Positions 13,842 through 29,507 of a stretch of DNA of 64,000 nucleotides are shown here, in pieces. The translations under genes and the position numbers were made by a program. The notes beneath the pieces are model-generated. The model did not search any database, was not told the origin of the DNA, and saw only the letters and a list, made by a program, of their open reading frames with translations. Within the stretch, counting starts at the first letter, position 1, and each line of letters starts with the position of its first letter. This DNA comes from Marinitoga piezophila KA3. GTDB lineage: Bacteria; Thermotogota; Thermotogae; Petrotogales; Petrotogaceae. The stretch lies in NCBI RefSeq assembly GCF_000255135.1, contig NC_016751.1, positions 992,001 through 1,056,000 of the forward strand. The letters are read 5' to 3'.

Positions 13842-14612
13842 TTAATACTCAAAAATCACCTGTGGCTTATTTTTGAAAGGATGCTCCACAATAAAACATT
13901 CTATATCAAAAATTTCTTTCATTATTTTCCTGGTAATTACTTTTTCAGGCGTTCCTGAATACTTTATTTCACCATTTTTTAAAATATATATTCTATCAGA
14001 ATACAATGATGCAATATTAATATCGTGGAATATTGCCAGTATTCCTTTATTATTTTCTACAACTTCATTTTTCACCATTCTTATTAATTGCTGGGTAAAT
14101 CCTGGATCTATTTGAGAAACAAATTCATCAAGTAATAAAATATCGGTCTGTTGAACCAGAGCACGCGTTAACATCACGCGTTGCTTTTCACCACCACTTA
14201 AATAATTATATACTCTATTCTTAAAAACATATGTATTTGTTTTTTTCATTGTTTCTTCCATTACTTTGTTATTTTCCTCAACTGATACTAAACCCGCATA
14301 TGGAATTCTTCCAGAAGAAATAATATCTTCCACTTTAAAATCAAATGATGTAAAGAATTCCTGTGGAACAACAGCAATCTTTTTAAACAATTCTTTTTTG
14401 GAATATTCATAAATAGATTTATTTTCAACATATATATTCCCTTTCATTGGTTTTTCTAAACCAGTTAAAAGTTTTAATATAGTTGTTTTCCCTGAACCAT
14501 TTGGCCCTATTATAGAAACAAATTCACCTTTTTCAAGATACATTTCAGAAATATTCAATTTAAAATGATTGTTATATGAAAAGATAAGATCTTTTATCTT
14601 TAAAATACTCAT
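13842..14612 (-). CDS. btuD: Cobalamin ABC transporter, ATPase subunit
   Basis: ATPase of a FecCDE/BtuCDF-type importer. The 256-aa protein has Walker A GPNGSGKTT (36-44), the Q-loop near VVPQEF, signature YLSGGEKQRVML and Walker B DILLLDEF, then a switch histidine in IFHDINIA. It overlaps the permease gene by four bases. B12 as substrate is inferred from the cobalamin riboswitch leading the operon, because this ATPase family also serves iron siderophores. Confidence 0.9.
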   Translation of the reverse strand: MSILKIKDLIFSYNNHFKLNISEMYLEKGEFVSIIGPNGSGKTTILKLLTGLEKPMKGNIYVENKSIYEYSKKELFKKIAVVPQEFFTSFDFKVEDIISSGRIPYAGLVSVEENNKVMEETMKKTNTYVFKNRVYNYLSGGEKQRVMLTRALVQQTDILLLDEFVSQIDPGFTQQLIRMVKNEVVENNKGILAIFHDINIASLYSDRIYILKNGEIKYSGTPEKVITRKIMKEIFDIECFIVEHPFKNKPQVIFEY

Positions 14613-15625
14613 ATCTTTCTTCCTCTTTTCATGATAATTATGAATATAGGAGCCCCTACTATAGAAGTAGTTACACCAATTGGAAGCTCTGTAGGTCTAA
14701 AAAGGTATCTTGAAAACAAATCGGCAAACCCGAGAAATATTCCTCCATAAATAATAGATCCCAATGTTGAATATCTAATTCCAGGACCTGTTAATTTCCT
14801 CACCAGATGTGGAATTATCAAACCTACAAAACCTATAATCCCTGCTTTGGAAACAACAACAGCAACTGCAAAAACATTAATTAAAAGTACTAAAATTTTT
14901 ATTTTCTCGGGATTAACTCCAGAATAAACCGAAATATCGTCTCCCATTGCTACCACTTCAATTTTTTTATGAAATACAAAATTCACAGTAATTTGTAAAA
15001 TCAAAAAAAACAATAGAAGATATAAATCTCCCCAGACTATATTTCCTGTACTTCCCATTAGCCAGAAGTTTATATGCAATAAATTTTGCCAGAATAAAAC
15101 TGTCAATAATGTCGAAACTGAATTAAATGTAAATCCAACAATCACACCACTTAAAATTAAAGATATAACAGGAATTTTTTTCCCTTCTTTTGCTAATAAA
15201 AAGGTAATAAATGTTGCTATAATCGCTGAAATAAACGAAAACATCTCTATTCCAAAAGGTAATTCAAGACCATATACACTTTTTAAAGCGGTGTATAATA
15301 TAGCTCCAAAACTTGCCCCTGAAGAAATACCAATAATAAACGGATCTGCAAGTGGATTTTTTATTATCATTTGAAAATCATTCCCTGCAACGGCAAGTAT
15401 TGCCCCTATAAGCAATGTTCCTAAAACACGAGGCAATCTTAAATTAAATATTATTCTATTGTACAATGTATTTTCAGATAAATTAAAAAATCCTTTTATT
15501 ACCTCAACAAATGGAATATTTATAGTTCCAAGTGAAACAAAAAGAATTATAGAAAAAAACACTAAAACAATTCCAGAAATCAGGTAAAAAATCGGGGAAG
15601 TTTTCCCCGATTTAATTAATTTCAT
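14609..15625 (-). CDS. btuC: Cobalamin ABC transporter, permease subunit
   Basis: FecCD/BtuC-family permease, 338 aa with about ten hydrophobic segments. Recognisable family blocks are NLRLPRVLGTLLIGAILAVAG, NPLADPFIIGISSGASFGA and, near the end, GFVGLIIPHLVRKLTGP, which contacts the ATPase. It overlaps the binding-protein gene and the ATPase gene by four bases each, so the three are translated in a coupled way. Confidence 0.92.
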   Translation of the reverse strand: MKLIKSGKTSPIFYLISGIVLVFFSIILFVSLGTINIPFVEVIKGFFNLSENTLYNRIIFNLRLPRVLGTLLIGAILAVAGNDFQMIIKNPLADPFIIGISSGASFGAILYTALKSVYGLELPFGIEMFSFISAIIATFITFLLAKEGKKIPVISLILSGVIVGFTFNSVSTLLTVLFWQNLLHINFWLMGSTGNIVWGDLYLLLFFLILQITVNFVFHKKIEVVAMGDDISVYSGVNPEKIKILVLLINVFAVAVVVSKAGIIGFVGLIIPHLVRKLTGPGIRYSTLGSIIYGGIFLGFADLFSRYLFRPTELPIGVTTSIVGAPIFIIIMKRGRKI

Positions 15626-16506
15626 CTATTTTCACTGAAGAGTTTATTTAGCTCTCCCAATAAGTCTATTAATCCTGTATTTGGTAAAGAAGCCTTATTT
15701 CCGTCTATGATAAATACTTTCTTGTTTTTTACAGCTTTTATATCTTTAAATTGTTCAGCATTCATAATTAAATCATATGCTCCTTTATCCCCAGGATAAT
15801 ATGAAGGAACAAGAATTATATCAGGATCTTCCTTAATTACAAATTCCGGACCCACTGCAAACCATCCATTATTTCCTGTATATGGAGCAGTTACATTAAT
15901 ACCACCAGCATATGCAATTAATTCATTTAAATATGCTCCAGTTCCACATGTCCACATCTGTGAAACACTACCATATGCAGAAAGATATATAACTCTTGGT
16001 TTCTCTTTCCATGTAAATGTATTTTTGGCTATATTCAACATTCTCTGTCTTAACTTAAATGAATAATCCTGTGCAGTTTTTTCCTTCCCAAGAATTACAC
16101 CTACAAGAGATAAATCCCTGAACATTTCATTTAAAGTAGTTGGATTTATAACAAAAGCCTTTATTCCAAATTTTTCAAGCTTTGAAACTTCCCCTTCCTG
16201 AAATCCCCCGGTTAATAATACAACATCAGGATTTAAAGATACAATTTTTTCAACATTTAGCGGAACCATATTTCCTATTTTCTCAACATCTGTAATATAG
16301 GAATCAAAATCAGTAACTCCAACAACTTTATCCTTAGCACCAAGCTTTACAATAAAATCAGAAATAGCTGGTGCAGCTACAACAATCCTTTCTACCTCTT
16401 TATCAAATACAACAACCCTTCCAAGATCATCTACAAGTGTCACAGATTGAAAAGCAAATGCCATAAAAGATAATAACAACAGCGTTGCCAAAAATACCTT
16501 CTTCAT
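15622..16506 (-). CDS. btuF: Cobalamin ABC transporter, binding protein
   Basis: Periplasmic binding protein of the BtuF/FepB class, 294 aa. It has a signal peptide (MKKVFLATLLLLSFMAFAF) but no lipobox cysteine, so it is soluble or held by its signal helix. The mature part begins with TLVDDLGRVVVF, the typical opening of the class, and contains the two-lobed layout with KIVSLNPDVVLL. First gene of the operon, directly behind the riboswitch. The ATG follows AGGAGGGAT. Confidence 0.9.
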   Translation of the reverse strand: MKKVFLATLLLLSFMAFAFQSVTLVDDLGRVVVFDKEVERIVVAAPAISDFIVKLGAKDKVVGVTDFDSYITDVEKIGNMVPLNVEKIVSLNPDVVLLTGGFQEGEVSKLEKFGIKAFVINPTTLNEMFRDLSLVGVILGKEKTAQDYSFKLRQRMLNIAKNTFTWKEKPRVIYLSAYGSVSQMWTCGTGAYLNELIAYAGGINVTAPYTGNNGWFAVGPEFVIKEDPDIILVPSYYPGDKGAYDLIMNAEQFKDIKAVKNKKVFIIDGNKASLPNTGLIDLLGELNKLFSENR

Positions 16507-16794: not shown

Positions 16795-16820
16795 AAAACC
16801 CCGGGAAAATTCCCGGGGGT
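16795..16820 (-). terminator. Terminator of the propeller lipoprotein gene
   Basis: Minus strand: CCCCGGGAA, short loop, TTCCCGGGG followed by seven Ts; strong intrinsic terminator that separates the gene from the B12 operon. Confidence 0.88.
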
Positions 16821-16828
16821 ATAACAGA

Positions 16829-19800
16829 TCAATTTGCAGCTAAACCTTCAAAGTTTAACCAGTTATAATCCTTTTCTAAATCAAGATTGCTATCTAATAT
16901 TACAAGGCCGTTTTCGCCATCAGATACAACATAATGATCATTAGTTCCATCATTTACCTTTTCCACAAACGTTGTATTTCCCTGAGTATCATAAGAATTT
17001 TCTACGTAATTTCCATCACTGTCTGAATCATTGCTTGCACCTATATTTCTTGCATCTGCATCACCAAGTTCTGTTGGATCAGAAACCTTCATAATTATTA
17101 CACCTTTATTTCCTGCAGATAATATAAGCGTATCTGTGCCATCTAAGGTTATATCTGTAATAAATGCATCATCAAATCTTGAACTTCCTAATTTAGTTAA
17201 CGTTGCGCTACTGGTATCTCCTTCATATTTCAAAATTATTACACCTTCGGATCCAGCTGCTGCATATATATACGTTTTTGTTGCACCAATTGTTGCTGTT
17301 TCAATATCAAAAATACTACCATTACTTAAATTATATCCACTATAATCTGAACTTGTTGTTGGGGCACCAAGATTTGAAATATCATATATTTCAATAGAAT
17401 CAGTTGTAGAAACTATTAATCTATTATCATCAGTTGTTGCTGAATCAGTTACTATTTTTCCAGAAAGCTGAACTCTGTTTACAAAATCATAATTTCCGCT
17501 ATTTTCATAAACATTTAATCCTCCACTACCGGAACTTACATAAACAACTGTTGAAACTATAGTTACATTATAAGCTTCTCCTAAAATAGGTAAACTCTTT
17601 AATTTAGTAAGATTTCCATTTGAAGTATCAAATTTTAATACATCTACTCCATAACTCCCTTTGGATACAAAAATATTTGTTAATTGTGTAGCTTCAACAC
17701 TCTTTGCAATTCCATCAAGCTGTATTGATGCTGTTGATTTTGCAGTTGTAAAGGATAATGTTGTTGCGTCTAAAATATTTACTCCATTTTCTGAATCAGC
17801 TACAATAATATAATTTTCCAATGTTTTTGTGGCTTTTGCTACAGCCCCATTATCCAATGTATTAATTTTTTCCATAGTATCAATATTTAAGATTAATAAT
17901 CCATATCTCTTATTTCCAGCAAATAAAGTTCCACCATCGATAAGTATATTACCTACATAATAAATACCGCTATCATATTTTGAATCTTCGCTTAATGTAT
18001 TTCCATCTAATTTTATAACTCCATTTGTTCCTGCAGCTATATATACATAACCGTCTTTGTAACTAACATCATATGCTTCCATACTTGCATTTGCAACCTC
18101 TGAAGGATTTGCTGGATCTGAAATATCTATCTTATATACTCCTCCGCTTCCCGCTGCAACATATGCATAATTTCCGTCAACATATACATTTAATGCACCA
18201 CTTATTTCATAACTACCAATTTCTGTTGGGCTATTAATATTGCTAATATCTACAATATGCAATCCATCATTTGCAGCAACATATACATAATCTCCAGATT
18301 GGTACAATCCTCTTACATCTGAAGAACCTAAAATACTTGAAACGTAAGATAATTCTCCTGCACTATTATCAAAATGCAATATCTGTAATCCTTCTGTTGA
18401 TGCTGCAACCAGAATATATGCCTTTGTAGATGGACTTGTTACAGTTGTTTCAAGAACATCATATGCAGTACTTCCAAAATAATAAGAATCTGTTTTCTTT
18501 GTTAAAGCTGAACTTGATGGTGTATATTCATAAACTGCTACTCCGTTATTTCCATCTGAAACAGCTATATATTCTTTACTATCAAATTCAAATTTAGATA
18601 AATTATATACATAACCTTCTGTATTTACTGAATTTGCAACAGTTGCTGGGGTTGAAGCAGAAGTATCAGAAATATCAATTACAAATATTCCTTCATATCC
18701 TCCTGCTACAAACAATGTATCCAGACCTGAAGTGGTAAATTCATAGAAATCATCTTTAGAAGGTATCCAATCTTCTCCACCTTTTCCGTCTGATACCTTT
18801 ACTCTCCAATAATAGGTTCTACCTCTATCTAATTTATCCACTCCTAAGATTTTAAGAATATTCACCGTTGTCGATGATGAAGTATCACTCTTAAGATTAT
18901 TTTTATCAACTCCTATGTATACAGTGTATTTTAGCTCATCACCATTTTCATCACTGGCATCTGGGAAAGTTACATTTTCCGTACCAATATTCACATTTTG
19001 CGCTTCATCTGAAGGTGTTACATTTGAATCAGCATCTGATGGAAATTCTGGAATTGAATTTTCAACAGGAACACTCTTTTTATAATTTCTTGCAAAGATA
19101 ATAAAATCTTCTATTCCTATTTTCCCATCTTTAAAAGCCACACTATAAATATTTTCATCAACCCAATCCTTAACAGGTGCAATTTCTGCAGGATATATAT
19201 CACATTGTGTTGAGTACAATGTATCTCCCTGCTGTGTTCCATAATGTTTTACAAAAATAAGGAAGTCATTTAAATCAACTTTATTATCTCTCTCATCATT
19301 ACTCGTATCTTCATTATCAAAATCACCTAAAAGAACAGGATTATAAACAACTATATCTCCAGCATATACACTATAACTAATATCTGCATTGTTTAAATCC
19401 TTTGCACTTAAATTTGTTATTGTAATCTGTCCTGGAGTCTTTGGAGAATCTCCCTGACCCACTAATTTTAATTCCAACACATCTTCATCTTCAAAATTCA
19501 TTCCATCTGTTTTTACAAGTGAAATTCTTAATCCATTTGGAATTTCTTTAACTATCATTTGAGGAGCACTTTCACTGCCTATATATTCCACTGTTGCATT
19601 TGTTGTATCATCGAATTTTACAATATTATTTGAAGGTAACATAACATCAAATTCCAGAGCAAGAGTATCGGAAACTCCTTTCATGTGAATAGCAACAGTT
19701 GCTGGATCACCTGATTTTATTGCAAGGTTATCTGTAACCGATATGCCATCTTCAAATGGATCTGAAGCTTTTGTGATAACGCGTTTACTTTTTTCATCAT

Positions 19801-20176
19801 AAAATGCAGCTTCTGTTTCCAACTTGTCTGTTTCAAGGTTTAGATATTTTCTTTTTAATGTAAATAGCTTTTCACCTTTGGTTATATCTCTTTGAGCTTT
19901 AGAAAATAATACAATTGTTTTATTATCCATTGGTTTAATTATAGCTATTGAATTATCTTTATCATATAAAAATGCATCTTCTGGTATTTTTTTATTGATC
20001 ACTATTTCAATAGCTGAAGCATTTACATTAGAATAAAAATTGTAATTTGATGCCAGAGTTACGCTGACTTCATCGGTATTCAACGATGAAACAGGAATTC
20101 TTTTAAAACAACTACTCAACAGGATAATTATCATTATCCCCAACAGGATTACAAATCCTTTCCGTTTAATATTCAT
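16829..20176 (-). CDS. Large lipoprotein: cohesin-like, dockerin-like, FN3 and LVIVD propeller
   Basis: The ATG at 20176 is chosen because it follows GGAGGTGA; ten further in-frame codons lie upstream. The 1115-aa protein has a lipoprotein signal with lipobox LLSSC (Cys23). Then: about 145-280, a cohesin-like beta domain (opening VTDNLAIKSGDPATVAI); about 283-367, a dockerin-like segment with two Asp-rich calcium-loop/F-helix units ending VDLNDFLIFVKHYG and GKIGIEDFIIFARNY; about 376-483, an FN3-like module (YYWRVKVSDGKGGEDW); and about 487-1105, many LVIVD-type beta-propeller repeats of the form YVAAGSGGVYKIDIS. No catalytic site is visible. Probably a cell-surface binding or scaffolding lipoprotein. 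Related in build to the next gene. Confidence 0.8.
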   Translation of the reverse strand: MNIKRKGFVILLGIMIIILLSSCFKRIPVSSLNTDEVSVTLASNYNFYSNVNASAIEIVINKKIPEDAFLYDKDNSIAIIKPMDNKTIVLFSKAQRDITKGEKLFTLKRKYLNLETDKLETEAAFYDEKSKRVITKASDPFEDGISVTDNLAIKSGDPATVAIHMKGVSDTLALEFDVMLPSNNIVKFDDTTNATVEYIGSESAPQMIVKEIPNGLRISLVKTDGMNFEDEDVLELKLVGQGDSPKTPGQITITNLSAKDLNNADISYSVYAGDIVVYNPVLLGDFDNEDTSNDERDNKVDLNDFLIFVKHYGTQQGDTLYSTQCDIYPAEIAPVKDWVDENIYSVAFKDGKIGIEDFIIFARNYKKSVPVENSIPEFPSDADSNVTPSDEAQNVNIGTENVTFPDASDENGDELKYTVYIGVDKNNLKSDTSSSTTVNILKILGVDKLDRGRTYYWRVKVSDGKGGEDWIPSKDDFYEFTTSGLDTLFVAGGYEGIFVIDISDTSASTPATVANSVNTEGYVYNLSKFEFDSKEYIAVSDGNNGVAVYEYTPSSSALTKKTDSYYFGSTAYDVLETTVTSPSTKAYILVAASTEGLQILHFDNSAGELSYVSSILGSSDVRGLYQSGDYVYVAANDGLHIVDISNINSPTEIGSYEISGALNVYVDGNYAYVAAGSGGVYKIDISDPANPSEVANASMEAYDVSYKDGYVYIAAGTNGVIKLDGNTLSEDSKYDSGIYYVGNILIDGGTLFAGNKRYGLLILNIDTMEKINTLDNGAVAKATKTLENYIIVADSENGVNILDATTLSFTTAKSTASIQLDGIAKSVEATQLTNIFVSKGSYGVDVLKFDTSNGNLTKLKSLPILGEAYNVTIVSTVVYVSSGSGGLNVYENSGNYDFVNRVQLSGKIVTDSATTDDNRLIVSTTDSIEIYDISNLGAPTTSSDYSGYNLSNGSIFDIETATIGATKTYIYAAAGSEGVIILKYEGDTSSATLTKLGSSRFDDAFITDITLDGTDTLILSAGNKGVIIMKVSDPTELGDADARNIGASNDSDSDGNYVENSYDTQGNTTFVEKVNDGTNDHYVVSDGENGLVILDSNLDLEKDYNWLNFEGLAAN

Positions 20177-20301
20177 AATTTCACCTCCATGTGGTTTATA
20201 TTCCATCCAATCTGATTATCGTCCTTTTTTTGAATATCTTTAATGTTATTTTTTATTAATATGATATTATATTAGACTTAAAATTATCTTTTTTGGTTCA
20301 A

Positions 20302-20339
20302 TAAAAAAAATAACAACGCCTCTTTAAGGCGCTGTTATT
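20302..20339 (-). terminator. Terminator of the 1631-aa lipoprotein gene
   Basis: Minus strand AATAACAGCGCC / GGCGTTGTTATT pair (one G-T) followed by a long T-run; overlaps the stop codon. Confidence 0.85.
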
Positions 20340-23300
20340 GTATTAAAACCTTACCTACATCAGATATATCAATATCCAGATAGTTATCTATTCCCGATGC
20401 AAACTTTGTGTTATCTGTAAATCTAAGTTCTGTTTCTCCAGGAGTTCCAATTGCTTTAAAGGTAAGTTGTAATATATCACTATTATTTATACTAAAGGTT
20501 CCTCCTAAGGATAAAATAGATATGCTTATTTTTCCATTTGAAATGCTTATAAGTAATCCTTTACCAGTTAATTCTCCTATACCTTTTATATCGTTTTCTG
20601 TAATGGATAGTTTAGCCGGATCATATGTAATTTCTATATCACATGCCTGAATATTTTCTATAACCTGCCCGTGTATTATCACATTACCTTTAGACCCTGA
20701 TTGTATCGTTGTATCTTTAAAATAAAGTTTTGGAACTAATGGTCCTGTATCTTCTTTTATTGTGAATGAATAGGTATCGCTTGATGTTTCTCCACCCTTT
20801 CCATCCTTCGCAACTACTTTCCAGTAATATGTTGCTCCAGTTTGAAGATTGGATACACTTAATGATGTATTGGCCAAATTTGTTTTATATGGTGTTGAAA
20901 GATTTGGATCTGTTGATAAATATACATCATATGTTAGTGAATCGCCATCAGGATCACTACAACTCCACTGTAAGGTTATATCCGGTTCAATATCTGTTGC
21001 ATTGTTCTGTGGCGAAAGCAATACAGGCTTATCAGGCGGCGTATTTTGTTGTAAAGCAGTTGTAAATGAATATGTTTTACTTGATGTCTCTCCACCTTTT
21101 CCGTCTTTTGCAACTACTTTCCAGTAATATGTTTTACCTGAATCAAGAGTTACTGTATAATCGGTATTTGTATAGTCGCTTTCTTTTGGTGTTGTAAATT
21201 GCTGCGAATCTGAGATGTATATATCATATTTTAACGTATCTCCATCCGGATCGTTTCCCTGCCATTTTAATGTTACTGTTGTAGGAATATTTTCTGCTTT
21301 ATCTGCTGGTTCAAGCAACTCTGGTTCTAATGGTGGATTATTTTCATTGGATGATTCTGTTATTGTAAATACCCACAATGGCCCTGAGGTTATATTTCCT
21401 TCGCTATCTTTTGCTATTACTTTCCAATAATATGTTCCTGGAACCAAATTTGTAATTTCATAATTTTTAGCAGTTATATTTTTTGCTTTTAATCCAGGCT
21501 CCTGTACATTTCCAAAATACAAGTCATAAGTTACGCTGTCTCCATCTGGATCATATGATTCCCATTTCAAAGTAAGTGTCTTTAAACTTAATGTACTTTT
21601 ATCTGCCGGGTATGGATTATATGGCTTTATTGGAGGTCTATTATCCGGCATTGTGATTAAGTTTGCATGAATATTTCCGGTATGTTTTCTATCTCCAAGA
21701 TATATTGGCCATCCTGAATCTTTCAGCTCTATTGAATCGCCATATACTCCATAAATGAACCCATTTAACGTTCCAAAAACTATAACACCATTTTCATCTA
21801 TATTTGGTGATGATTTTAATTTTAACTGCGTTTCCTCCGTATCCTGATACGTCCACTCTTCAGTAGAGTTTATTACCCTAAAACTTTTTTTACCGCCTAA
21901 ATATTTATATTCTCCTGTAAGAGTAACATTATATAATTGTTCATTATATAAATCTTTTTCCAGAATATCAGTTATATAGTAATATTTATAAAGATATCCA
22001 CTTTCGCCTACAAATACTATTGAATTATCTGTATCAACTACTATACTTCCTGTAATTACTTCATCTAATTCTTTTTCAAATATTTTATTTCCATACAAAT
22101 CATATCCATATATTTTTTTCTCTTTTGTTCCAAAATATATGTTTCCATTTTTATCCATGGATAAATCTGTTGAAATCTGTTGAGCAAAGGATATTTTAAA
22201 CAATTCTTCTCCTGTATTGCTGGATAATCCATACAGGAATTGTCCAATACCTAAATACAGGTTATTTCCATTAACTACTATATTTGTAGTTGCATTACCA
22301 AATAATTCTTTTTTCCATATTTCGTTGCCAAACGCTCCAAATTTATACAATATACCTGTATCCGTTACTACGAATATTTCTCCATTCACTCCAATAGACA
22401 CAGGCTTTGATATAGGACCTTCCAACTCTGTTTTTTCATATAACGTGCCATCTGGATTTATTATATATAACTCACCTAATTCATCACCTATAATTATTTG
22501 ATTAATTGGATTTAACACCACAGGAGCTTTTATAAAGCCTTCTGTATTATATTTCCATATTATATTCCCATAGGTATCCAATGCATATATTGCTCCGTCT
22601 GATGTTGAAAAATAAATTGTATTATCTTCAGAAATTGCAGGCGATTGAATTGCACTACCTATATATTTTTTAAATTTTAAATCTGCGGGCTTTAAAATTG
22701 TTTTAAAAGAATATATATCGCTTTCTGTTTCAAATTCTCCATCAGAAGCTATAATTTTCCAATAATATCTTTTATTATTTTCAAGTGTAATGTTAAAATA
22801 TGTAGCTTCGGTTGTACCAATAGCCTGTAATTCTTCATTTTCCTGAGCAAGATATATAGTATATTTCAAAGGATCATCTTCTGGATCTTCGCCTTTCCAG
22901 GAGAGTGTTACTTTTATAGGAACCTCTGTTCTTTGATTCTCAGGATAAATTAACACAGGTTTCTCAGGTTGATGATTATTTCTACTATATAGATTTCTAT
23001 TATGCTCTGAATTTTTTCCGTCTTGACACCATATATTATCTGTAGCCTCTTCTGAGGGAATTATAGATAATGCATATAAATTATTCTGAGAAATTCCCAA
23101 TAGCAATCCATCATTAAAAGATGAGGATAATATTTCTCCAAATTCATCTTTATTATTTGTAGATTCAAAGTTTTTGTATATTCCGTTTTTCGTAAAAATA
23201 TATATATTATTTCCATGAATTATTTTGCTCTTATTGTACAAATTAGCAATAGAATAACTTGCTTTAAGTTTTCCGGATTTTGAAATTTTAAATATTTTAG

Positions 23301-25230
23301 AATTTCCGAAAACATAAACATACTCTCCATCATAAATTCCTTCACCATATATATTATCACTTAAAGTTATTTCCCAATTTTCATCTCCTTCCTGTGTATA
23401 ACTATATAATTTCTCACCTGTTGCAAAATACAAATTATAATTTTCATCAGAAATAATAGAACCTGTCAATTTATTTGATAAATTAATTTCACAAAGTACC
23501 TTGCCAAGTGGTTTTGTAATTATAATTTTCCCACTATTTTCATAATTACCCGAAATCACCATTTTACCATTTTCAATTATCGTTAATGGAGCTATTGGTT
23601 CAATTTCATATATTTTATTAAATTTTACTGTATCTCTAGAAAGATCATAAGCTACTATATTACCATTTTTAACTGTAATATAAAGTGTATTTTGACCTGC
23701 TGTTAAACCTATAATAGTATCTGATATTTCCAGAGATATTGTTTTTTGAATAATGAATTTACTTAAATCAATTACCTTTATTTCACCATTTTCAGAAGGA
23801 ATATATAAAATTCCATTATAAATAATACCACCAGGTAAAAGGCCTTCAACTTCTATGATATTATTTTCTGAAGAATCTGTATTTAATTTATATATTTTAT
23901 CATTTGTTATAACATAAATTTTTTCATCATAGATAAACATATCTTTTATATCTTCTATTTCTTTTTGCCATTCAAGGGAAACGGGCTCTTTTGTTGTTTT
24001 TATTTTATACACTTCACTCCAGCTTTTCTCACCATAAGGATCTTCTGACATTACTTTTAGATAATATACCTTATTCTTTTCAAGAGATATATCATAGTAT
24101 GTATCTTCAAGATTTGTGGCAATTGGAGATAAGTACATTGGATTATTACCCATATAAAGTGAGAATTTCAATTTATCATTATCTTTATCCACTCCATTCC
24201 AATTTAATCTGATATTATCCGGAATTATTGAATTGTTTTTTGGATATATAAATTCCGGATTTTCAGGTGTTTGATTTACATCCTGAACTATTATATTTAA
24301 AACTCCCAGTGAATTTTCTTTTGTATCCGATACCACTATCTGTTCCTGAATTTGTTTTGTTAAATCTGGATGTTTTACAAAATCATAATCTGGTTTGAAT
24401 ATATACTTACTTCTTTCAATCATTGCACCTTTATTATTTGTTAATATATGGTATTCTATTGGATCGTTTTCTCTATCGTATACAAAATTTTTCAAATCCA
24501 ATTCAAATTTTTCATTTTCTTTTATCACAAATGTTTTAGCGGGAAAGTCAACAACAGGAGGTGTATTGTCATCTGTTTTGAATGTCCATATATCTGATGT
24601 TTCACTTGCACCCATTGAATCAAAAACTACTACTTTCCAATAATATTTTGTATTTAACTTTAAATCTTTTACGGTATATTCTGTTTTTGTAAGATATGTT
24701 GCAATCGGTGTTATAAGCGATGTAGATTCATCAAGATAAAGATTGTAATAAACATTATCTCCATCAAAATCCACACTTTTAATCCATTGAAACTTTATTT
24801 CATATGGAAAAACTTCTTCTGCACCATCTCTTGGATTTATTAAAAAAGTTTTAGTTGGAGGATTTTTATTGATTTTTTCAATTCTAAATTCAATAATTTT
24901 TCTATCTAAATTCCCTTTTTTATCTACTGCTTCAAGTTTCCATGAATATGTTTTATCTTCATCAAGGGATAAATTAATTTCTGTTTCTGTATATTCCTTA
25001 ATATCTTTTATTACCTTTTTATCAGTATTGGAAAATAAATAAAAATTATAATACAGAAGATCATTATCAGTATCTTCTGCCTTCCAGGAAAATTTAACTT
25101 CTTTATCAGTTAAAGATTCGCCATTTTGTGGAGTCATCTCCAATATTTTCGGGGGATTGTTTTTAAATATACATCCCTGAAAGAGAAAAAGCATCAGTAA
25201 TATAATTATAAGATTTAAAATTTTCTTCAT
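20335..25230 (-). CDS. Giant lipoprotein: FN3 modules, two propellers, C-terminal cohesin-like domain
   Basis: A 1631-aa protein with lipobox LFQGC (Cys20). In order, by counting residues: FN3-like modules at 24-118 and 124-219; a cadherin/Ig-like module at 224-318; FN3 at 322-413; a PQQ-like beta-propeller at 418-735; FN3 at 754-845; a second propeller at 848-1190 (repeats such as IYFSTSDGAIYALDTYGN); three FN3 modules at 1199-1291, 1298-1392 and 1398-1491; and a cohesin-like domain at 1498-1631 (KLYFKDTTIQSGSKGNVII, DIEITYDPAKL, ILQLTFKAIG). No enzyme domain is seen. Long, exposed and modular, it fits a surface or toga scaffold. The separate promoter is not clear; GGAGG precedes the ATG. 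Confidence 0.82.
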   Translation of the reverse strand: MKKILNLIIILLMLFLFQGCIFKNNPPKILEMTPQNGESLTDKEVKFSWKAEDTDNDLLYYNFYLFSNTDKKVIKDIKEYTETEINLSLDEDKTYSWKLEAVDKKGNLDRKIIEFRIEKINKNPPTKTFLINPRDGAEEVFPYEIKFQWIKSVDFDGDNVYYNLYLDESTSLITPIATYLTKTEYTVKDLKLNTKYYWKVVVFDSMGASETSDIWTFKTDDNTPPVVDFPAKTFVIKENEKFELDLKNFVYDRENDPIEYHILTNNKGAMIERSKYIFKPDYDFVKHPDLTKQIQEQIVVSDTKENSLGVLNIIVQDVNQTPENPEFIYPKNNSIIPDNIRLNWNGVDKDNDKLKFSLYMGNNPMYLSPIATNLEDTYYDISLEKNKVYYLKVMSEDPYGEKSWSEVYKIKTTKEPVSLEWQKEIEDIKDMFIYDEKIYVITNDKIYKLNTDSSENNIIEVEGLLPGGIIYNGILYIPSENGEIKVIDLSKFIIQKTISLEISDTIIGLTAGQNTLYITVKNGNIVAYDLSRDTVKFNKIYEIEPIAPLTIIENGKMVISGNYENSGKIIITKPLGKVLCEINLSNKLTGSIISDENYNLYFATGEKLYSYTQEGDENWEITLSDNIYGEGIYDGEYVYVFGNSKIFKISKSGKLKASYSIANLYNKSKIIHGNNIYIFTKNGIYKNFESTNNKDEFGEILSSSFNDGLLLGISQNNLYALSIIPSEEATDNIWCQDGKNSEHNRNLYSRNNHQPEKPVLIYPENQRTEVPIKVTLSWKGEDPEDDPLKYTIYLAQENEELQAIGTTEATYFNITLENNKRYYWKIIASDGEFETESDIYSFKTILKPADLKFKKYIGSAIQSPAISEDNTIYFSTSDGAIYALDTYGNIIWKYNTEGFIKAPVVLNPINQIIIGDELGELYIINPDGTLYEKTELEGPISKPVSIGVNGEIFVVTDTGILYKFGAFGNEIWKKELFGNATTNIVVNGNNLYLGIGQFLYGLSSNTGEELFKISFAQQISTDLSMDKNGNIYFGTKEKKIYGYDLYGNKIFEKELDEVITGSIVVDTDNSIVFVGESGYLYKYYYITDILEKDLYNEQLYNVTLTGEYKYLGGKKSFRVINSTEEWTYQDTEETQLKLKSSPNIDENGVIVFGTLNGFIYGVYGDSIELKDSGWPIYLGDRKHTGNIHANLITMPDNRPPIKPYNPYPADKSTLSLKTLTLKWESYDPDGDSVTYDLYFGNVQEPGLKAKNITAKNYEITNLVPGTYYWKVIAKDSEGNITSGPLWVFTITESSNENNPPLEPELLEPADKAENIPTTVTLKWQGNDPDGDTLKYDIYISDSQQFTTPKESDYTNTDYTVTLDSGKTYYWKVVAKDGKGGETSSKTYSFTTALQQNTPPDKPVLLSPQNNATDIEPDITLQWSCSDPDGDSLTYDVYLSTDPNLSTPYKTNLANTSLSVSNLQTGATYYWKVVAKDGKGGETSSDTYSFTIKEDTGPLVPKLYFKDTTIQSGSKGNVIIHGQVIENIQACDIEITYDPAKLSITENDIKGIGELTGKGLLISISNGKISISILSLGGTFSINNSDILQLTFKAIGTPGETELRFTDNTKFASGIDNYLDIDISDVGKVLIQ
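20761..21140. repeat. 300-base tandem period encoding FN3 modules
   Basis: 20761-20840 and 21061-21140 are near-identical stretches exactly 300 bases apart, encoding YYWKVVAKDGKGGETSS twice. This shows recent internal duplication of one FN3-like module of 100 residues. Confidence 0.75.
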
Positions 25231-25356: not shown

Positions 25357-27051
25357 TTAAATTTCTTCTTCTACTTCTTCCAGATCTTTTTTACCTGCAC
25401 GGGCGATAGCTATAAATCCTTCTACAAAAATCCAGAGAGCTATAATGAGAGTAGCAACTGTAATGAATATTAATAAGCTATTATTACTTGCTATAAATTT
25501 CTTTAAGTTTAATACTGTTGCATATAATGTCATAACCATCATAAATAACATTGGTAATCCTGTAATCCATATTGGCTTTTTCTTCTGTGCAAGATATACA
25601 GTACCAATAAGCAATGCTAAACTGGCAAGTAACTGATTTAAAGCACCAAATACTGGCCAGAGAATTAAAGCACCTTTACCGTCTCCAGTTGACAATGCTA
25701 ATCCCATTGCTGCAAGAATCACTATTGCTGTTGCAACATATCTATTTTCAAGAGGTTTAACTATGATTTTTCCTTCTTTATTTGAGAATAATTCCTGCAA
25801 TGCAAATCTTTGAATTCTTGTTGATGAATCCATTGTTGTACCAGCAAATGAAACAATAAATACAGCCATTATTGTTTTTGCAAGGTCAAGAGGAATGCCA
25901 TAAGAGTTCATAAGATTTGCTGAACCATTGATAACTGCTGATAATTTTGCACCAAGACCGCTTGCTGCTGCCCATGATGAATAATGTGATGTAAATGCTT
26001 CAACGCCTCCACCATTCATACCAAGACCTGCAGTTACTGCAATAATAACAATTGTTGCAAGAACTCCTTCTAAAATCATTCCGCCGTAACCAATCATCTG
26101 AGCATCTGTTTCTTTTTCCAATTGTTTAACTGTAGTTCCTGAAGCAGCTAAACTATGGAACCCTGATATTGCACCACAGGCTATTGTTATGAAAAGAATT
26201 GGGAATATAGGTGGTGCATCTGGAACTGTTTGAAATGCAGGAGCAACGATTTTTGGATGTCCAATAATTACTCCAAGAACCAATAATCCCATAGCAATTA
26301 ATAATTCATGTGAATTTATATAATCCCTTGGCTGCAATAACTTATGAACAGGCATAGTTGAAGCGATGAAAACATATGCCATCAATATATAAATCCATGT
26401 AATTATTGCATTTCCACCAAGTTTTATAGGCATAACAACACCTATGCCAATAGTTACATACATTAAAATAACAGCAATTATTGAATAAAGTGTATCGTTT
26501 TTACCTTTGTTATAAATCATATAACTTAACCACATGGCAATAGGTATTTCCATCCATACTGGAAATACTGACTGTGGATACATATTAAACAACAATGCAA
26601 CAATAAGTCCAAATACTGCCAGAACTATCCATAATAAGAACTGGATTAAAATCAAGAATATCTTTGCTGTTCTTTCGTTAATTAAATTACCTGTTAATTC
26701 ACCTATAGTTTTACCCTGATTTCTTGCTGAAACTACAAGTGATGTAAAATCATGTACTGCACCCATAAATATAGAACCAAAGAATACCCAGATAAATGCA
26801 GGTACCCAACCCCAGATAACACCTATTGCTGGACCAACTATTGGACCTGTTCCTGCAATAGTTGTAAAGTGGTGTCCCAATAAAATATGCTTTTTAGTAG
26901 GAACATAGTCAACACCATCTTCAAATTCCTTTGAAGGTACCGGGTTGTTGTCGTTAAGACCGAAAATCTTTTTTGCTATCCATTTGCCATATGTGTTATA
27001 GGCCAACCAATAACCTACAAATGCTAAAATAGCCAACAATAACGAATTCAC
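25357..27051 (-). CDS. cstA: CstA-family transporter (pyruvate/peptide)
   Basis: Integral membrane protein of the CstA family, 564 aa with many hydrophobic segments. The family signature near the N-terminus is clear: GHHFTTIAGTGPIVGPAIGVIWGW followed by GAVHDFTSLVVSAR. CstA of E. coli was first linked to peptides and its paralogue BtsT to pyruvate import. The gene lies directly downstream of a LytS/LytTR sensor pair, the same partnership as BtsSR with BtsT, so pyruvate is the best guess for the substrate. The start is GTG, placed behind GAAAGGGGGT. Own terminator behind it. Confidence 0.92.
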   Translation of the reverse strand: MNSLLLAILAFVGYWLAYNTYGKWIAKKIFGLNDNNPVPSKEFEDGVDYVPTKKHILLGHHFTTIAGTGPIVGPAIGVIWGWVPAFIWVFFGSIFMGAVHDFTSLVVSARNQGKTIGELTGNLINERTAKIFLILIQFLLWIVLAVFGLIVALLFNMYPQSVFPVWMEIPIAMWLSYMIYNKGKNDTLYSIIAVILMYVTIGIGVVMPIKLGGNAIITWIYILMAYVFIASTMPVHKLLQPRDYINSHELLIAMGLLVLGVIIGHPKIVAPAFQTVPDAPPIFPILFITIACGAISGFHSLAASGTTVKQLEKETDAQMIGYGGMILEGVLATIVIIAVTAGLGMNGGGVEAFTSHYSSWAAASGLGAKLSAVINGSANLMNSYGIPLDLAKTIMAVFIVSFAGTTMDSSTRIQRFALQELFSNKEGKIIVKPLENRYVATAIVILAAMGLALSTGDGKGALILWPVFGALNQLLASLALLIGTVYLAQKKKPIWITGLPMLFMMVMTLYATVLNLKKFIASNNSLLIFITVATLIIALWIFVEGFIAIARAGKKDLEEVEEEI

Positions 27052-27127
27052 TAAAAATACCCCCTTTCAATTTTTAAACTATACCATTATAAAAATATCA
27101 TACAATATTCATCTTTTTCGACAAAAG

Positions 27128-27155
27128 TAAAAAAAAATGCCCCAAACGGGCAAAT
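27128..27155 (-). terminator. Terminator behind the response-regulator gene
   Basis: Stem tgccc / gggca with loop, followed on the minus strand by nine Ts; lies between the regulator and cstA, so cstA needs read-through or its own promoter. Confidence 0.7.
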
Positions 27156-27163
27156 TTCTAAAC

Positions 27164-27859
27164 TCAAAGATTTAAAATTTTCTTGACATGCCTTAAATAT
27201 GTTTTACCTATTGGTAATATTTTTTTATTTTTCAATTCCAGAGAAGATAGTTCTTTTATATATTTTTCTATATAATCAAGATTCACAATATACGATTTAT
27301 GAATCCTTACAAAATTTTTTGGCAAATTTTTTGATAGTTCTGAAAATTTTCTAAAATGCTTAAGTATATATTCATTATCAAATGTAAATACATGTATGGT
27401 TTTGTCAAAAAATTCAAAATAATATATATCTTTAAAATCAAGAAATATTATTTCTTTTTCATCTTCAACAGCCAATTTTGTAGTTTTGTTTTCTGTGTTG
27501 GTAAATAATTGTTTTATTCTATTTATTGTCTCAATAAAACGTTCTTCTGAGACAGGCTTTGTTATATAGTCAAGAGCATTAACCTCAAATGCATCTACAG
27601 CATATTCCGAATATGCTGTTACAAAAACTATTTTATGCTGATTTAAGTATTTCGCTGCCTTTATTCCGTTCATTTTTGGAAGTTCTATGTCTAAAAATAT
27701 AACGTGAATTTCATTATTCTTTGATTTTTTCATAAACTCTTCAATGCTTTCATAACAACCAACAATATTAAAATCACTCATTTCATGTATTAAATCCTTT
27801 AATGATTCCCTTGCGTAATATTCATCATCTATTATAGCCACATTAATCAATTGTCTCAC
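27164..27859 (-). CDS. btsR: LytTR-type response regulator, BtsR-like
   Basis: Two-domain regulator, 231 aa: receiver domain with phosphoacceptor Asp57 in FLDIELPKMNG, and LytTR DNA-binding domain with the typical FVRIHKSYIVNLDYIEKY and LPIGKTYL. In E. coli BtsR activates the CstA-type pyruvate transporter btsT; here the neighbouring cstA is the obvious target. It overlaps the sensor kinase gene by 17 bases. No binding-site repeat was identified by eye upstream of cstA. Confidence 0.9.
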   Translation of the reverse strand: MRQLINVAIIDDEYYARESLKDLIHEMSDFNIVGCYESIEEFMKKSKNNEIHVIFLDIELPKMNGIKAAKYLNQHKIVFVTAYSEYAVDAFEVNALDYITKPVSEERFIETINRIKQLFTNTENKTTKLAVEDEKEIIFLDFKDIYYFEFFDKTIHVFTFDNEYILKHFRKFSELSKNLPKNFVRIHKSYIVNLDYIEKYIKELSSLELKNKKILPIGKTYLRHVKKILNL

Positions 27860-29507
27860 CTACTTTTTTAGGTATCTTTATTTCCACAGTAGTCCCACCA
27901 AACAATCCACTTTTTATTGAGAAATTATAATCATCATTATACAGGGATTTTAGTCTATTTTCTATTAATGTCAACCCCTTACCCTTTTTTCTCGAATTCA
28001 ACATTCCCTTTCCATCATCTTCCACATAAATATAAAAACTATTTTCTTTTTCTAAAAATCGTATATTTATGTTTAGAATAGTATCCTTCATTCCATGTTT
28101 TATTGAGTTTTCTACAATAGGTTGAAGTATAAAAGGTGGAACAAGTATTTCACTGTATTTTTCATAATCTTCAACATTATAATTTATTTTATCCTTAAAT
28201 CTTAATTTCATTAATGAAAGATAATTTTTAGTAAATGTCAATTCCTTATTAAGAGTAACATACGTGCTATTTTCATATAAAGTATATCTCAAAAGTTCTG
28301 ACAAATCGTCTATAAATTTATTTACCTTTTCAGGTTCTTTCTTTGAAATATATTTTATAGCATTTAATGTGTTAAATAAGAAATGTGGACTTAAATTCGC
28401 CATTAATTCTCGCAATTTCTCCTCTGTTGCCATTTTTAATTCTTCATTGATTTTGGCAGTTGATATTATTAATGAAAGTGTCTGTGCCAGTTTTTTACCA
28501 AAGACTATATCTGAATTTTTTATTGTATTATTTCTGGAATAATACAGCTTCAATGTCCCTATTAGTTTCCCTTCTACATTTTCAAGAGGAACTATAATCG
28601 CCGAATATAACGGACAATTAGGATATGGGCAATTAATTCCCTTTTTCCCAACTATCTTTAATCCCTGACCGCTTTTTATTACTTTTTTTGTAGCCTCTGT
28701 CTTTATTGGTATTCCAGAATAATGATGGTCATCACCTATCCCAACATGAGCTAATATTTTCTTTTTATCTGTTAATGCAACAGCTTCAAAAGAAGTATTA
28801 TCAAGTATTGTCTTTGCAATCTCTCTTGCGCTTCGTTCAGTGAATCCGTCTTTTATTGTATTCAAAGACCTTTCCATTATTACAAAAATTGAGTTTATAG
28901 CATTTTCCGTTGTATATTCCAGCTTTTCTTCCATATTAATTATCATGAAATTAAGGAATGAAACACCTAAAGCATTTGTGATAACCATTGGGAATAATAT
29001 ATTAAAGGTTATATTATAAGCTACCTCGAAAGGTTTTACCATTAATAACACATAGGTTAAATGTATAATCTCTATTACCGCTGTATAAAACAAAGTTCTA
29101 AAAAAGGTAAAATGTTTTCTTCCATAATATTGAGATATAAAACCACTAATTAAACCTGCTGATATTGTTCCAAAAAAACATGGAACAGCGGTAATTCCGC
29201 CTAAAAACAATCTAAACGTCGCTGCAATTATGCCAGCTACCAATCCTCCTGGCATTCCACCAATCATTCCAGAAAGAATAACGCCTATATCTCTATAATT
29301 TACAATTGCACCATTATACGGAATTCCAAAAATTGTTCCAAGAATCCCTAAAAATCCTCCAATTATTCCAAGAATAAGCTTATTTTTGACAACAAGAGTA
29401 TTGCCAAAAATCTTTTTTATAAAATATGTCTGCATTATAATATAGGTAATAACAAGAATAAGTGAAACCCTTTCAAGCAATAAAAAACTTATGCTATCCT
29501 TCAACAT
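27843..29507 (-). CDS. btsS: LytS-family sensor histidine kinase, BtsS-like
   Basis: Membrane sensor kinase, 554 aa. About six hydrophobic segments lie in residues 8-190 with GGMPGGLVAGIIAATFRL, the hallmark of the 5TMR-LYT sensor domain. A GAF-like domain follows (about 215-350, with CPYPNCPL), then the His kinase core with PHFLFNTLNAI (His375) and an ATPase domain with ENSIKHG, DDGKGM and GKGLTLIENRL. LytS/BtsS members sense small metabolites or membrane state; BtsS senses pyruvate. Its start overlaps the stop of the small upstream gene. Confidence 0.92.
   Translation of the reverse strand: MLKDSISFLLLERVSLILVITYIIMQTYFIKKIFGNTLVVKNKLILGIIGGFLGILGTIFGIPYNGAIVNYRDIGVILSGMIGGMPGGLVAGIIAATFRLFLGGITAVPCFFGTISAGLISGFISQYYGRKHFTFFRTLFYTAVIEIIHLTYVLLMVKPFEVAYNITFNILFPMVITNALGVSFLNFMIINMEEKLEYTTENAINSIFVIMERSLNTIKDGFTERSAREIAKTILDNTSFEAVALTDKKKILAHVGIGDDHHYSGIPIKTEATKKVIKSGQGLKIVGKKGINCPYPNCPLYSAIIVPLENVEGKLIGTLKLYYSRNNTIKNSDIVFGKKLAQTLSLIISTAKINEELKMATEEKLRELMANLSPHFLFNTLNAIKYISKKEPEKVNKFIDDLSELLRYTLYENSTYVTLNKELTFTKNYLSLMKLRFKDKINYNVEDYEKYSEILVPPFILQPIVENSIKHGMKDTILNINIRFLEKENSFYIYVEDDGKGMLNSRKKGKGLTLIENRLKSLYNDDYNFSIKSGLFGGTTVEIKIPKKVGETID

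Follow-up and report, generated by a model that had tools for sequence, protein, structure and literature searches.

We consider it fairly probable (about 0.63) that two lipoproteins encoded by adjacent genes of Marinitoga piezophila KA3, of 1115 aa (P1) and 1631 aa (P2), each contribute one half of a non-cellulosomal cohesin-dockerin complex that joins two lipid-anchored proteins of the envelope. Cohesins and dockerins are best known from cellulose-digesting machines. In the Thermotogota, almost every cohesin adjoins a dockerin gene, and this phylum-wide adjacency suggests a largely overlooked protein-docking system that operates without a cellulosome. Beyond the initial annotation, which had recognized cohesin-like and dockerin-like modules in this pair of proteins, the present analysis identifies the X domain and a rule of paired genes that holds across the phylum, together with a second pair in KA3 and a terminator between P2 and P1.

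Architecture of the lipoprotein pair in KA3

The KA3 genome consists of 2,244,793 bases in two contigs, the larger one of 2,231,407 bases. Both ORFs were confirmed on the minus strand of the window (the whole 64,000-nucleotide stretch analysed), at 16829-20206 for P1 and 20335-25230 for P2. P1 starts at residue 11 of its 1125-aa ORF, where an ATG at 20176 is preceded by GGAGGTG, which yields the 1115-aa product (Table 1). The initial annotation had placed a cohesin-like module followed by a dockerin-like one in P1 and a cohesin-like domain at the end of P2, and had seen no catalytic domain in either protein; both module assignments hold, the Pfam search found no catalytic domain in P1 or P2, and the module edges agree within about 10 residues.

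Table 1. Features of the P1 and P2 genes and of their products, in coordinates of the window
Feature	Coordinates	Strand	Description
P1 gene	16829..20176	-	1115-aa lipoprotein (B-type): X domain, cohesin, dockerin, FN3, LVIVD propeller
P1 signal peptide and lipobox	20108..20176	-	LLSSC, Cys33 of long ORF; by inspection
P1 X domain	19760..20110	-	beta-rich, about 115 aa; long-ORF residues 33-149
P1 cohesin-fold domain (CohN)	19340..19759	-	long-ORF residues 150-289
P1 dockerin	19073..19339	-	long-ORF residues 290-378; two F-hand-like repeats, KVDLNDFLIFVKHY and KIGIEDFIIFARNY, both loops with insertions
P1 FN3-like domain	18752..19054	-	weak Ig_Rha78A_N match and sequence
P1 LVIVD beta-propeller region	16832..18739	-	PF08309, 1e-20
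P2 gene	20335..25230	-	1631-aa lipoprotein (A-type): FN3 repeats, two PQQ-like propellers, C-terminal cohesin
P2 C-terminal cohesin (CohC)	20338..20760	-	Pfam, profiles; fold from M. lauensis orthologue
P2 signal peptide and lipobox	25171..25230	-	FLFQGC, Cys20; by inspection
P2 second PQQ/BamB-like propeller	21988..22683	-	residues 850-1081; Pfam
Intrinsic-terminator-like hairpin	20309..20339	-	directly 3' of P2, ahead of P1
Intrinsic-terminator-like hairpin	16799..16818	-	3' of P1

The gene preceding P2 is likewise followed by a terminator-like hairpin, and because such hairpins follow this gene, P2, and P1, the two lipoprotein genes are probably transcribed separately in KA3 despite their adjacency; a P2-P1 operon is disfavoured by the terminator between them. 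The pair is flanked by genes at 13842-16506 and 25357-29507 of the window, and the same flanks occur in most of the Marinitoga loci examined. On one side are the genes of an ABC importer (a PF01497 periplasmic binding protein, a permease, and an ATPase), and on the other those for CstA, a response regulator, and a histidine kinase of the 5TMR-LYT type.

Cohesin, dockerin, and X modules

The C-terminal cohesin of P2 scores 24.6 bits against the Pfam cut-off of 24.1 (PF00963, residues 1516-1617) and was found at 1.3e-16 by a cohesin model built without Marinitoga sequences. The P1 cohesin, CohN, evolves fast, with 18-42% identity to its congeneric orthologues. In KA3, it lies below the Pfam cohesin threshold and was missed too by the cohesin model that excludes Marinitoga; its orthologue in another genome (G044) exceeds the Pfam cut-off at 28.8 bits, and a profile of CohC domains recovered the KA3 domain at 5e-6. 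The structure check proposed in the initial annotation for this region of P1 returned a cohesin fold: in Foldseek, the AF2 model of CohN (pLDDT mostly 70-91) has as its best PDB match the cohesin 2xdh (E 2.9e-7, TM 0.78 on the target), followed by many further cohesins. CohC of M. lauensis, modelled in a linked construct, has pLDDT 84-92, and the construct matches 6kgc (TM 0.81) and, within the top ten, 2xdh (TM 0.83). Thus, in these models, both domains have the jelly-roll cohesin fold. The models built without Marinitoga sequences gave zero matches in 588 shuffled proteins. In the tree, CohN and CohC of Marinitoga form separate lineages, with KA3 CohN on a long branch.

The P1 dockerin of KA3 is also below the Pfam threshold, and a Dockerin_1 search of the KA3 genome gave no match; the dockerins of this genome were detected instead with a family-built profile. 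A dockerin HMM from which all Marinitoga sequences were excluded matched residues 290-377 of P1 at 9.3e-19, 17 of the 22 family dockerins match PF00404 (Dockerin_1; best 1.5e-9), and the best PDB matches of the family profile are dockerins (2y3n_B at 5e-10, then 6kg9 and 6kge). The family alignment contains five invariant Asp residues and two DFxxFxxxY helices. Dockerins consist of two F-hand repeats, each of about 22 residues, in which an Asp-rich calcium loop leads into a helix. Judged by its sequence, the P1 module is a dockerin with two such repeats, and its two near-equivalent helices liken it to the dockerins with dual binding modes. In AF2 models, based on alignments of 4-5 sequences, helices are predicted in both repeats, with pLDDT mostly below 50.

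The first loop of the dockerin is a canonical 12-residue calcium loop in most relatives (for example, DFDGNGKVDLSD in G021, Kosmotoga pacifica); the KA3 version, DFDN-EDTSNDER-DNKVDLND, keeps the ligand Asp and carries 8 inserted residues. Loop 2 contains about 20 extra residues in KA3 P1 and in nearly all B-type proteins (defined below) and, in KA3, has Gly at position 9; across both loops, the ligand Asp are mostly kept. Given the retention of these Asp, the canonical loop 1 of the relatives, and the precedent of a functional type-II dockerin that tolerates a four-residue insertion in calcium loop 1 (PMC5141474), binding between P1 and P2 would likely be calcium-dependent. The X domain of P1, modelled at pLDDT about 70, belongs to a module that recurs directly ahead of dockerins, in some proteins with a cohesin placed between the two and in others not.

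Neighbouring cohesin and dockerin genes across the Thermotogota

Of 103 Thermotogota genomes searched with the family profiles, 53 gave dockerin matches and 32 gave cohesin matches; the 59 stronger cohesin matches were kept. Nearly all of these (57 of 59) lie at most 2.3 kb from a dockerin match; some of the loci from which the profiles were built came out of these same searches, but adjacency was no criterion of the profiles. The two exceptions are located at contig ends, one of them on a Marinitoga contig that stops within the B gene. By a rough estimate, the chance of such adjacency is about 1% or less per locus. In 18 of the 57 cases, the cohesin match is within 100 bases of the dockerin, mostly as a cohesin within a B protein; most of the other paired matches represent a separate neighbouring gene. 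No cohesin was detected near 33 of the 78 dockerin matches, mostly those of the peptidase and propeller types.

The proteins fall into A-type lipoproteins, which end in a cohesin, and B-type proteins, which consist of an X domain, an optional cohesin, a dockerin, and then cargo. In all 34 A-type proteins, no module follows the cohesin, the dockerin of B lipoproteins is mostly near the lipid anchor, and the lipobox pattern is present in 26/34 A-type and 36/42 B-type ORFs. In the Marinitoga genomes, a P2-type gene adjoins a P1-type gene, and the same A and B pair, with the genes often touching or overlapping, recurs in several further families of Thermotogota; the shared occurrence in relatives on which the initial annotation had counted is therefore borne out within the genus and outside it. 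The B cargo is an LVIVD propeller in Marinitoga, a solute-binding protein family 5 domain in K. pacifica (PF00496, 9e-59), a caspase-like peptidase domain in G006 and G007, a beta-helix in G029, LRR in G012, and a PQQ propeller in G013.

Several of these loci have features of their own. In K. pacifica, one locus (L030:3958-16105) encodes two X-cohesin-dockerin lipoproteins, and the 1120-aa one of these, which carries the family 5 domain, adjoins apparent ABC permease and ATPase genes, an arrangement that suggests docked solute receptors. The loci L029:9064-13806 and L034:1289-3672 encode X-cohesin-dockerin lipoproteins with a caspase-like (Peptidase_C14) domain. Proteins of family f9 (L086:6826-9534, L088:8335-11100, and others) are secreted, about 900 aa long, with a C-terminal dockerin, propeller-like repeats recognized by eye, and no detected cohesin neighbour. 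At a further cohesin/dockerin locus (L027:6858-13524, G041), the dockerin protein is in two ORFs relative to L071, the split being a frameshift or an assembly error. Outside the Thermotogota, a scan of the genome collection found only weak dockerins in Latescibacteria, at loci without a cohesin or X domain.

KA3 itself contains two dockerin and three cohesin matches in the family profile search. The second pair of this genome (G000:C2:783457-786299, the same as L028:9458-12300) consists of a gene for a 459-aa cohesin lipoprotein that overlaps by 4 bp the gene for a 488-aa papain-like peptidase (PF00112, 1.8e-24), which has a C-terminal dockerin and a signal peptide without a lipobox. On a plain reading, the cohesin lipoprotein anchors the secreted peptidase. 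Similar pairs are encoded in G080 and G013. In the tree, the cohesins that accompany the peptidases branch as a lineage of their own, and, in the alignment, the peptidase dockerin is shorter than the P1 dockerin and of a different subtype.

Partner choice and comparison with known docking systems

Within Marinitoga, the mean pairwise identity is 62% for the P1 dockerin, 65% for CohC, 63% for the X domain, and 37% for CohN, with 41% for the C-terminal part of P1 and 61% for the remainder of P2. Because the dockerin and CohC are both well conserved, and CohN is fast-evolving and missing from many dockerin proteins, the P1 dockerin and the P2 CohC appear to be the likeliest pairing. This pair is apparently what selection keeps, given that dockerins without CohN retain an adjacent CohC and that CohN has the lowest identity of the modules; the recurrence of the pair with very different cargo also counts for such docking. 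The P1 dockerin, located near the membrane anchor, would dock onto CohC, at the far C-terminal end of P2, and so connect the FN3/PQQ-propeller arm of P2 with the FN3/LVIVD-propeller head of P1. CohN might then offer a further docking site, one that changes fast and would accept a different dockerin, such as the one on the KA3 peptidase. We infer that P1 and P2 face the same compartment, perhaps on the toga or in the periplasm, and bind each other there, with a need for calcium, and that the propellers have ligands.

Thus, of the assembly proposed in the initial annotation, the docking of the P1 dockerin to the cohesin end of P2 stands as the best-supported pairing, but the prediction of the complex suggested there as a check did not yield one. 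AF2 was applied to linked CohC/X-CohN-Doc (an M. lauensis DNA read-through, L064:9260-11041, with in-frame stops as Gly and an artificial linker); the dockerin had pLDDT 30-50, pTM was 0.36, and no credible complex emerged. Several observations count against a docking pair, namely, the inversion of P1 in G042, the calcium-loop insertions, the dockerins that lack a nearby cohesin, an X-CohN-Doc protein (G043:C3) with no detectable CohC neighbour, and the terminator between P2 and P1, as a result of which the KA3 pair need not be co-transcribed.

The G043:C3 protein, along with the location of CohN and the dockerin next to each other in one chain, an arrangement retained in Marinitoga, in Kosmotoga, and in further genomes, would fit a dockerin that binds its own cohesin, either in cis, masking itself, or in trans, forming a chain of P1; CohC would then be free to serve a different dockerin, such as the one on the peptidase. 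We regard this as unlikely because many related dockerin lipoproteins lack CohN and yet have an adjacent CohC, and because CohN is the least conserved module whereas CohC and the dockerin are among the most conserved. A little less probable again is a small cross-specific network, made up of all three cohesins and both dockerins that KA3 encodes, which would also hold the papain-like peptidase on the envelope. The genome has exactly this number of matches, and the peptidase, secreted without a lipobox, has a cohesin lipoprotein as its overlapping neighbour, but the separate lineage of the peptidase-associated cohesins and the short dockerin of a different subtype argue against exchange with P1 and P2.

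Alternatively, the modules could be mere structural spacers, dockerin-cohesin recognition having been lost in Marinitoga, as the insertions in both P1 calcium loops, the Gly in loop 2, and the weak Pfam scores might imply. This is the least probable of the three readings: within the genus, few parts of these proteins are as well conserved as the dockerin and CohC, and the four-residue loop insertion mentioned above comes from a functional type-II complex (PMC5141474). For docking of the P1 dockerin to CohC, as we prefer, the geometry has to be considered as well. With the cohesin at the tip of A and the dockerin near the anchor of B, the simplest arrangement for long A proteins such as P2 is one that spans a pair of membranes, either the inner membrane and the toga or those of neighbouring cells; a long A could also bind B in one membrane by folding back, and we rate a two-membrane bridge as improbable as the loss of recognition. 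If the bridge were real, cohesin-dockerin pairs would serve Thermotogota as tethers of the envelope or as fasteners in adhesion.

A cellulosome is excluded: KA3 encodes three single-cohesin proteins and two dockerin proteins, one of which is the papain-like peptidase. Like KA3, the archaeon Archaeoglobus fulgidus is a non-cellulolytic host with cohesin and dockerin modules and no cellulosome. Its modules are encoded by adjacent genes, and we know of no propellers in this system. Unlike the thermotogal pairs, it is not known to include an X domain, and no phylum-wide gene-pair pattern has been described for it. The best Foldseek match of CohN, 2xdh, is the non-cellulosomal cohesin of this archaeon, according to Voronov-Goldman et al. 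2011 as cited in PMC9705933; the A. fulgidus pair binds strongly (PMC9705933), and its high affinity has been used in engineering (PMC9705933, PMC6394049).

In cellulosomal type-II complexes (ScaA-ScaF of Clostridium thermocellum and ScaA-ScaB of Acetivibrio cellulolyticus), as here, the dockerin comes after a beta domain, its cohesin partner belongs to an anchoring protein, and a loop insertion is known (PMC5141474); profile matches included 3l8q, 4wi0_B, and 4u3s_B. In contrast to those complexes, the Thermotogota pair includes neither a multi-cohesin scaffoldin nor a glycoside hydrolase, and the thermotogal X domain, which showed no sequence match to the cellulosomal X-module, may be separated from the dockerin by a cohesin. 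The non-cellulosomal system of ANME archaea resembles the K. pacifica B protein in that dockerins are found on OppA/NikA-type solute-binding proteins, but it includes scaffoldin-like proteins with up to five cohesins (PMC9012536), whereas Thermotogota mostly have one cohesin per protein and pair it with a neighbouring gene.

Our literature search found no paper linking cohesins to Marinitoga, with a prior mention of Thermotogota in broader cohesin surveys being possible, and the word dockerin is absent from the best-ranked papers found on Marinitoga, Kosmotoga, Mesotoga, and Thermosipho. Peer et al. in 2009 reportedly surveyed non-cellulosomal cohesins and dockerins across the three domains. 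Such modules are already known in archaea and bacteria (PMC9012536); in the literature searched, cohesin-dockerin pairs in Thermotogota are apparently undescribed. The sequence evidence indicates that, in a phylum of mostly thermophilic bacteria, cohesin-dockerin docking without cellulosomes probably serves as a general means of joining envelope proteins encoded by neighbouring genes, with cargo as varied as propellers, peptidases, and solute-binding proteins. What cohesins do outside cellulosomes thereby becomes testable in bacteria, and many natural, probably thermostable cohesin-dockerin pairs are on offer, a shortage of such pairs having been stated in designer-cellulosome work (PMC6394049). 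In the Thermotogota themselves, the pairs may be relevant to the way in which the toga is kept in place or decorated.
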